Assembly (NCBI GenBank): GCA_011620315.1
Contig: WOZO01000179.1
Location: 1 to 40,556, forward strand
Direction of reading: 5' to 3'
DNA length: 40,556 nt
Source of the DNA: Sideroxydans sp.
Lineage (GTDB): Bacteria; Pseudomonadota; Gammaproteobacteria; Burkholderiales; Gallionellaceae
Each line of letters starts with the position of its first letter. Positions within the stretch are counted from its first letter, which is position 1. A program made the position numbers and the translations under genes. The notes beneath the pieces were generated by a model that had not been told where the DNA came from, ran no database searches, and worked only from the letters and a program-made list of their open reading frames with translations. Below are positions 8,117 through 9,113 of the stretch, piece after piece.

Positions 8117-8210
8117 GTCCACGAAAAACACGAAACCCACGAAAAGTTGTCCGATTGAAAAGCTATCCAGACCTGAACCATTTCCTGTTTTGTTCGTGCT
8201 TTTCGTGGAC
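8117..8210. repeat. Dispersed inverted-repeat element, copy A (94 bp)
   Basis: The left end GTCCACGAAAAACACGAA (8117-8134) and right end TTCGTGCTTTTCGTGGAC (8193-8210) are inverted repeats matching at 17 of 18 positions. The middle is not conserved with the other copies. The right end continues as CAACGTTTTT. The element lies between cysH and cysD, inside the cys operon. The same left end occurs at 21580 and 31424. Confidence 0.85.
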
Positions 8211-8219
8211 CAACGTTTT

Positions 8220-9113
8220 TCAGACCGTCTGCTCCTGCTTTGCAACGGGCCGTGCTGCGATCTCGATGATACGTGCGCGGCTGGCTTGTAACGAGGTGCT
8301 GCTCGCCACATGCAAGCCGCACTCCTTGTTCTCCGGGTTGTGGCTACGGCTAACGTCGTGCGCTTCGCGCTCGACATTAGCCTCCACCGAAACCCCGAAA
8401 CCGTGGGCTACGCCCCCTCCGTTAGGCCTGTGGCTTACATGTAAGCCACATTCCTTGTTTTCGGGGTTTTCCCACCACCAACGTCCAGCGCGGATGTCTT
8501 CGCCGGGCGTGACGGAACGTGTGCACGGTGCGCAACCGAGGCTGGGATAGAACTGGTCGTGCAGTTTGTTGTACGGCACATCGTGCTGGCGGATGTAAGC
8601 CCACACGTCCTTGTTGCTCCACTCCAGCAGCGGGTTGAATTTCTGCAGACCGTTGTCCGCATCGAAGCTGGATACTTCCAGCGTGCCGCGCGTCACGGCC
8701 TGATCGCGGCGCATGCCGGTGATCCACGCACCCTTGTCTTTCAAGGCGCGGCGCAGCGGTTCCACCTTGCGTGCAAAGCAGCAGCCTTTGCGGTTCTCGA
8801 CGCTGTCATAGAAACCGTTGATGCCGTGCTGCACCACGTACTGTTCGACCAGTTCATGATTCGGGAAGTACACCGTCAGCGGCACGCTGTAACGCTGGCG
8901 CACTTCCTGGATCAGGTCATAAGTCTCTTTCGGCAAACGACCGGTATCCAGACTGAACATCGCGATGTCAGGTGCATGCTTGGCAATGAGGTCGGTCAGC
9001 ACCATGTCTTCCGCGCCCAGACTGTTGGCGAACACGACCGGCGTGAATTCGGCAGCGGCCTGTTTCAGCACGGCCACGGTGGCATCTATCTTGTTTTGTA
9101 AATCACTCATCAT
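8220..9113 (-). CDS. cysH: Fe-S adenylylsulfate (APS) reductase CysH with duplicated catalytic tail
   Basis: A 297-residue assimilatory APS reductase, which makes sulfite from APS with thioredoxin. The cluster-ligand pattern CC (111-112) plus CAPC (194-197) identifies the [4Fe-4S] APS type rather than the cluster-free PAPS type. The catalytic ECGLH at 221-225 lies 25 residues after the last ligand (C197 to C222), the same distance as in the Pseudomonas enzyme. Unusually, the protein continues: NPENKECGLHV at 216-226 is repeated exactly at 259-269 after 32 inserted residues, and then comes a 28-residue tail. The insert contains a palindromic DNA element (8348-8382). The start overlaps the DUF934 stop (ATGATG over TGA). 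An in-frame repetitive element seems to have extended the C-terminus; activity of the second tail is unknown. Confidence 0.93.
   Translation of the reverse strand: MMSDLQNKIDATVAVLKQAAAEFTPVVFANSLGAEDMVLTDLIAKHAPDIAMFSLDTGRLPKETYDLIQEVRQRYSVPLTVYFPNHELVEQYVVQHGINGFYDSVENRKGCCFARKVEPLRRALKDKGAWITGMRRDQAVTRGTLEVSSFDADNGLQKFNPLLEWSNKDVWAYIRQHDVPYNKLHDQFYPSLGCAPCTRSVTPGEDIRAGRWWWENPENKECGLHVSHRPNGGGVAHGFGVSVEANVEREAHDVSRSHNPENKECGLHVASSTSLQASRARIIEIAARPVAKQEQTV
8308..8469 (-). repeat. Partial tandem duplication within cysH with 129-bp period
   Basis: Segments 8308-8340 and 8437-8469 are diverged direct repeats that both encode NPENKECGLHV on the minus strand. Most of their differences are synonymous C/T or G/A changes. 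The 129-bp offset equals 43 codons, so the reading frame is kept. Confidence 0.85.
8348..8382. repeat. REP-like palindrome inside cysH coding sequence
   Basis: GGCTAACGTCG (8348-8358) pairs with CGACATTAGCC (8372-8382) with one mismatch, and the stem continues through GCGC/GCGC around a TTC loop. A second, perfect 18-nt palindrome, TGGCTTACATGTAAGCCA, lies at 8431-8448 at the edge of the duplicated segment. Both are translated within the extended CysH C-terminus. Confidence 0.8.

Follow-up and report, generated by a model that had tools for sequence, protein, structure and literature searches.

The cysH gene in the window, the 40,556-nucleotide stretch of Sideroxydans sp. DNA analysed here, raises the question of why an APS reductase should carry its catalytic C-terminal tail twice, and of what separates the two copies. 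The answer proposed below is that the element found between the tails, and not the enzyme, is the interesting part of this locus.

The two tails of CysH

The gene (8220..9113, minus strand) starts with ATG, and its open reading frame codes for a thioredoxin-dependent APS reductase of 297 amino acids. The identity given by the original prediction holds, with 258.3 bits against TIGR02055, above the cut-off of 235.3; the cut-off of NF002537 is exceeded as well, and PDB 2goy, an APS reductase, is the closest solved relative both by sequence and by fold. On one side, the gene is flanked by an open reading frame of 170 amino acids without an NCBIfam match, and on the other side by cysD-cysN, followed by an open reading frame resembling sulfite/nitrite reductases.

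The duplication of the peptide NPENKECGLHV, reported in that prediction, is real. The first copy occupies residues 216-226 (8436..8468, minus strand) and contains C222; the second occupies residues 259-269 (8307..8339, minus strand) and contains C265. The copies lie 129 nt apart in the same frame, with 32 residues between them and a tail of 28 residues after the second. The alignment with 2goy stops at residue 228 of CysH and includes the ECGLH of the first tail only, which makes this tail the canonical one, as had been proposed from the distance of 25 residues between C197 and C222. CysH and 2goy are alike in fold, in the cysteine motifs and in the first ECGLH tail, but CysH has 71 additional residues past that tail, the second tail among them. 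Residues C111, C112, C194, C197 and C222, which make up the CC, CxxC and C-terminal ECGLH motifs, are invariant in 20 aligned CysH sequences. C222 is most likely the residue that performs catalysis. The AlphaFold2 model of CysH is poor past residue 188, the first tail included, and places neither of the two tails.

At the nucleotide level, the two tail copies show five differences in 32 locally aligned bases, all of them at third codon positions, and the valine codon adds a sixth, also synonymous (GTA/GTG). The repeat between the two flanks scores 40, compared with 33.4 for the 99th percentile of permuted flanks.

A dispersed palindrome between the tails

The segment between the tails is occupied by a palindromic element that has spread to other genes, which is an addition to what had been predicted for this locus. 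Its unit is ordered as GAAAA, gene end, an inverted copy of the first bases of that gene end, TTTCGG, hairpin A, CC, AAAA and gene end again. In the window, the GAAAA motif (8467..8471, minus strand), which covers Glu-Asn codons and was evaluated by its count among cysH loci, stands where the left gene-end copy begins. Folding and arm pairing define a stem-loop, S1 (8390..8470, minus strand), which encloses the first tail copy between the arms AAAACCCCGAAA and TTTCGGGGTTT; its 3' arm repeats codons of the gene itself in inverted orientation. Inside it, an inverted-repeat search and the folds identify the palindrome TGTGGCTTACATGTAAGCCACA (8429..8450, minus strand), which lies over the codons C222-G-L-H-V-S-H. 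Hairpin A (8338..8393, minus strand) follows and is translated in frame as VSVEANVEREAHDVSRSH. The 138 nt from the GAAAAC before the first tail to the first bases of the second fold into two stem-loops, with z values of -6.47 as RNA and -7.01 as DNA, and none of 200 shuffled sequences was equally stable. An Rfam search of the window returned no family at its gathering score. Elsewhere, at L056:5013-5160, a match to RF02625 was obtained at 37.6 bits, below the gathering score of 65.3.

Hairpin A was searched with R1, a covariance model built from 25 of its copies, the one in the window included, which scores 65.2 bits (E 2.2e-22). This model was needed to find the family; BLAST of the insert against its own genome returned, besides the locus itself, only nine weak places, and the five that were inspected (L002, L003, L004, L007 and L008) are ordinary-looking sequence. 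With R1, hairpin A is found at 11 places in the genome of the window (E<1e-3), in 75 of the 100 family genomes sampled (E<=0.01), the family being probably Gallionellaceae, and in 46 of the 150 order genomes sampled (E<=0.001). An 18-nt inverted repeat between cysH and cysD (8117-8134 and 8193-8210, 94% complementary, 58 nt apart) has no R1 match.

Among the copies listed for the genome of the window, the one in cysH is alone in lying clearly within a long conserved open reading frame, the others being mainly at or between gene ends. In-frame copies within proteins are found in cysH, glyQ, cysN, Mpl and an RND efflux pump, which has several of them (L263); those in Mpl, from genomes of two families (L206 and L271), occupy equivalent places. 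In cysN (L054:3518-3565, also L190:1501-1548), the insertion reads VCR-VHGSDFGSDITRQSGLVSTETVGEYAN-GFRGFAG, at a point where the CysN of the window has the shorter PQTNEYHD. At the start of glyQ (near position 1000 in L149, L150 and L151), hairpin A is read in frame between MLTF and QQVIL, with two copies in L151; these sites have no flank repeat above the threshold used. Some copies stand at gene starts in the opposite orientation. At five loci (L188, L203, L227, L233 and L247, four of which cluster as one gene context), hairpin A lies directly past the start codon, ahead of a signal-peptide-like stretch, as in the AmtB of L188, which begins MKTK..VSVKANAS..GYAVTKK.

The pairing of S1, taken as that between the bases following the upstream AAA and those preceding the hairpin A TTT, was evaluated in 138 distinct elements, kept after pooling 97 elements, 29 of the 53 from outside the family and 15 from cysH loci. 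At least four extra complementary bases are present in 70 of the 138, compared with a mean of 3.6 and a maximum of 10 in 200 permutations; in 51 elements the extra pairing amounts to no more than one base pair, and four lack the upstream AAA. The S1 arm matches the host gene of each element, and the two arms co-vary among cysH orthologs. GAAAA is found at this place in 18 of the 19 cysH loci with the element versus 10 of the 27 without it (Fisher p 6e-5), a comparison that is confounded by relatedness; outside the family, 25 of 34 cysH loci have GAAAA and lack the element.

Copied gene ends and the cysH genes of relatives

The repetition of a gene end on both sides of hairpin A is frequent and not general. 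Of 125 hits, 97 entered the flank analysis and 96 of these passed the flank filter; the 28 left out are in part the same element in overlapping loci and otherwise weaker neighbours, and the loci are mostly the best-scoring places in the family and order genomes, which makes them a non-random sample. A direct repeat between left and right flanks that exceeds 33.4, the 99th percentile among 3,561 permuted pairs, is present in 30 of the 96 elements, with the worst pair of the permuted control reaching 93 as a result of imperfect context clustering. At this threshold, 66 of the 96 show no flank duplication, the glyQ and amtB sites included. Duplicated flanks occur in at least 17 of 42 gene contexts, which are approximate, with one merging several genes. 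The repeats measure from about 30 to more than 100 nt, and in most single insertions only a few bases separate their start from the CC-AAAA end.

By NCBIfam, the genes concerned include acs, with the repeated end NPAILEQLKEVIK followed by a stop codon, recA (NRVRESLGVNA, in the genome of the window), ftsW (NRRVARGLPI and stop, in the same genome), accB for the biotin carrier protein (GQPLFIIG and stop) and an aminotransferase, together with murG and dTDP-glucose dehydratase, in which it is the gene start that is repeated. In murG, a partial open reading frame with an NCBIfam score below the cut-off, this is an exact 39-nt copy. A Dps-like protein of the window's genome, also scoring below its NCBIfam cut-off, has a repeated end too, and outside the family serS and typA were found. 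There, 43 of 53 hits were used for the analysis of arrays, and near-exact tandem arrays of gene end plus hairpin were observed, in which the last copy has sometimes diverged, mostly synonymously (acs, L266). Arrays are present in the genomes G148 (one contig) and G056 (three contigs), among others.

The original prediction took the predominance of synonymous differences between the two cysH copies as a sign of selection on the second tail at the protein level, or else of gene conversion. It is no evidence for such selection, given that gene-end copies of which the right one lies outside the reading frame, past the stop codon or before the start, are also mostly synonymous. In 14 such rows, the differences fall 22, 5 and 92 times at codon positions 1, 2 and 3 (77% third), and 91 of the changed codons are synonymous versus 12 that are not. 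When each gene is represented by a single row (eight rows), 53 are synonymous and 3 non-synonymous (p 2e-8), where the neutral expectation was set at three in eight on the assumption that half of the changes fell in the unconstrained copy. For 21 rows the counts are 101 and 18 (p 7e-8), a weaker contrast than that of the eight rows; five of the copies among the rows are of acs and thus non-independent, and for acs in L218 and some array rows the left copy also lies outside the gene. Rows were excluded where the start codon could not be placed (L245), where the alignment was gapped (L160) and where no clear gene frame was found (L215, L231, L232 and L238). Judging from these codon patterns, the two copies appear to have been under the constraints of a functional gene end while most of their differences accumulated. 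This fits an upstream end that was already divergent on arrival, a history that would also explain the cysH copies without a function for the second tail.

Among the cysH genes compared, hairpin A is found at the end of the gene in 19 of 46 family loci (L009, L013, L039-L080, L083 and L086, some labelled only Nitrosomonadales or Proteobacteria, with L081 and L082 left out of all cysH counts for a gene truncated by the contig end) and in none of the 34 loci outside the family. A stop codon precedes hairpin A in 12 of the 19, and in five (L009, L013, L042, L043 and L050) the hairpin is read through in frame; in L048 the cysH frame ends within the hairpin, and in L060 the tail is blurred by masked bases. 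Two or more in-frame tails are present in four of 88 distinct CysH tails, those of the window, L042, L043 and L050, and no second tail was found among the 34 outside loci. An assembly artefact is an unlikely source of the doubled tail, since L042, L043 and L050, with two or three in-frame tails, come from other assemblies. The decay that had been named as the mark of neutrality is largely what is seen in this group. The second tail is intact in L050, and the three tails of L042 all have the cysteine; L043 has ECSLH, L013 has kept the hairpin peptide and lost the second cysteine, and the tail is absent elsewhere. The left-flank peptide is present in 18 tails, 14 of which have a single ECGLH. 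Our reading is that the element may have been in frame in the ancestor of this cysH group and was then mostly lost.

The relative age of the two ends is suggested by L063, in which the downstream copy has the tail VGKTSALKFTAAK, similar to the native tails of L031 (VGKSSALKFTAK) and L033 (VGKTSLLKFSAKK). Neither L031 nor L033 has an R1 match, and for this reason it is the displaced end that looks native and the upstream end that looks new.

Origin of the doubled tail and known systems

Taken together, the evidence makes it probable that the doubled tail of CysH is a trace, read in frame, of a dispersed palindromic mini-element, composed of S1 and hairpin A, which sits at the GAAAA of cysH together with a copy of the 3' end of the gene, with C222 catalytic and C265 tolerated. 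The upstream gene-end copy, which is the first tail, closes the catalytic domain at its normal place, with hairpin A next; the displaced gene end, which is the second tail, comes after the hairpin together with the old C-terminal extension. The frame stays open in the window and in a few relatives, the stop before hairpin A being the commoner state. The upstream end would have come with the element, already diverged, through transfer between lineages or a homing-like event. The chances are about even that the element represents a novel class of bacterial mini-elements which enters conserved genes at GAAAA by bringing or making a replacement gene end, with the direct copy, the inverted arm and the hairpin as one unit. 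If true, this would explain how recA, acs, ftsW, accB and cysH can be colonised without being inactivated, and how re-insertion at the same site gives rise to tandem arrays.

Three fates had been offered for the second tail, namely that it competes with the first, that it is a sulfonate acceptor or that it is inert. The last of these is favoured, with C265 probably a functionally inert remnant. A second catalytic tail, with C265 competing with C222 or taking the sulfonate from it, would agree with the intact tails of the window and L050, with the three cysteines of L042 and with the synonymous differences, and selection could explain why four CysH proteins keep two or three tails in frame. Nonetheless, the out-of-frame copies of other genes are equally synonymous, and the decay in relatives (the cysteine lost in L013, the motif changed in L043, one ECGLH in most tails with the left-flank peptide), along with the lack of any second tail in the 34 outside loci, rules it out as the main reading and leaves it very improbable. 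Even less credible is an assembly chimera or a local tandem duplication independent of the element. The source is a metagenome-assembled genome of 233 contigs, which would allow for such an event, but the same architecture recurs in other assemblies, and arrays are present in G148 and G056, assemblies of one and three contigs. The palindromes could also be kept as RNA or DNA structure at gene ends, as a terminator or an mRNA stabiliser, with the gene-end copies as a side effect. The strong fold and the concerted change of the S1 arms among cysH orthologs are what such a role would predict; the in-frame copies within cysN (L190), Mpl (L206, L271) and the RND efflux pump (L263), the oppositely oriented copies at gene starts and the absence of an Rfam family at gathering score in the window are not, and we consider this role improbable.

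How the element moves bears on two further explanations. In IS200/IS605 elements, a guide sequence pairs with the cleavage site, and a single-strand mini-transposon of this kind would carry as cargo the gene end lying between an upstream AAAA and the hairpin, with the NTTT ahead of the hairpin foot as guide and AAAAN' as its partner at the left cleavage site. Such pairing is present in many elements (GTTT/AAAAC, ATTT/AAAAT, CTTT/AAAAG) and extends further, and a short form, in which AAAAC stands three bases ahead of GTTT, accounts for 12 of the 138 elements. On the other hand, a gene-specific inverted arm is unexpected for a transposon end, and Y1_Tnp does not track the element: by hand tally it occurs in 77 of the 100 family genomes, 56 of 75 carriers and 21 of 25 non-carriers, and in G095, a genome of one contig, 13 elements coexist with zero Y1_Tnp matches. 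This origin is thus unlikely. Somewhat less doubtful, and still tentative, is an insertion akin to target-primed synthesis, in which template switching and a target-site duplication of long and variable extent would produce the copies locally, to diverge later. The long copies, both direct and inverted, are reminiscent of synthesis that is target-primed or switches templates, and the right junction usually after AAAA, the length of the repeats, the inverted arm taken from the host gene and the exact murG copy all speak for it. However, the mostly synonymous differences outside the frame (53 versus 3, and 101 versus 18) are unlike neutral decay, and this codon-phase result weakens a plain target-site duplication followed by such decay; reverse transcriptase genes (RVT_1) do not track the element either, with 36 of 75 carriers and 13 of 25 non-carriers by hand tally. 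Among the 100 family genomes, no mobilising enzyme of the three considered (Y1_Tnp, reverse transcriptase and integron integrase) is commoner in carriers. Integron integrase above the curated cut-off is found in 55 of these genomes, that of the window included (G000:C93).

If the mini-element reading is true, a small palindromic repeat can establish itself in a conserved gene by restoring that gene's end, and new C- and N-termini, as well as homing-like spread from one lineage to another, could arise in this way. The case is also a warning that a repeated catalytic motif with synonymous differences is not in itself a sign of function.

Among known systems, integron cassettes resemble the present case in forming arrays of cargo plus hairpin. 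The attC core is GTTRRRY, and the ends of hairpin A do not fit it; nor is there an association with integron integrase (42 of 75 carriers versus 13 of 25 non-carriers). GTAG- and CGTC-tagged REP sequences are described, in the part of the account considered, as palindromes mostly 3' of coding regions, with some within open reading frames (PMC3733652), whereas hairpin A ends in GTTTCGG and CCAAAA and has no terminal GTAG or CGTC tag; the main text of that account names none of Gallionella, Sideroxydans, Burkholderia or Betaproteobacteria. As to mobilisation by a RAYT transposase, which marks such REP sequences, Y1_Tnp is present in 77 of the 100 family genomes and does not follow the distribution of hairpin A. 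The YPAL/RU-2 repeat of Yersinia is likewise palindromic, and its target-site duplications vary from 3 to 26 bp according to the excerpt considered (PMC2229807), whereas here the repeats run from about 30 to more than 100 nt and are typically a gene end. In the open-licence literature on repeats and on APS reductase, no description of the hairpin A element was found, which is weak evidence of novelty. The Rickettsia palindromic elements are, in the portions of the accounts considered, dispersed sequences of 105-146 or about 150 bp, found between genes and in frame within genes for conserved proteins, where they leave the frame open (PMC10969869, PMC2229807). Neither gene-end copies nor a gene-specific inverted arm appears in the excerpts on these elements and on the tagged REP (PMC2229807, PMC10969869, PMC3733652), and the unit found here differs in that its hairpin measures only about 50 nt and is accompanied by a gene-specific inverted arm and by a gene-end copy. 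Nonetheless, going by the excerpts, this unit and the Rickettsia elements are alike small dispersed palindromes that occur in several unrelated genes, with insertions in frame as well, and the Rickettsia palindromic elements, together with other in-frame MITE/REP insertions, are the closest known kinds to the element that separates the two tails of CysH.
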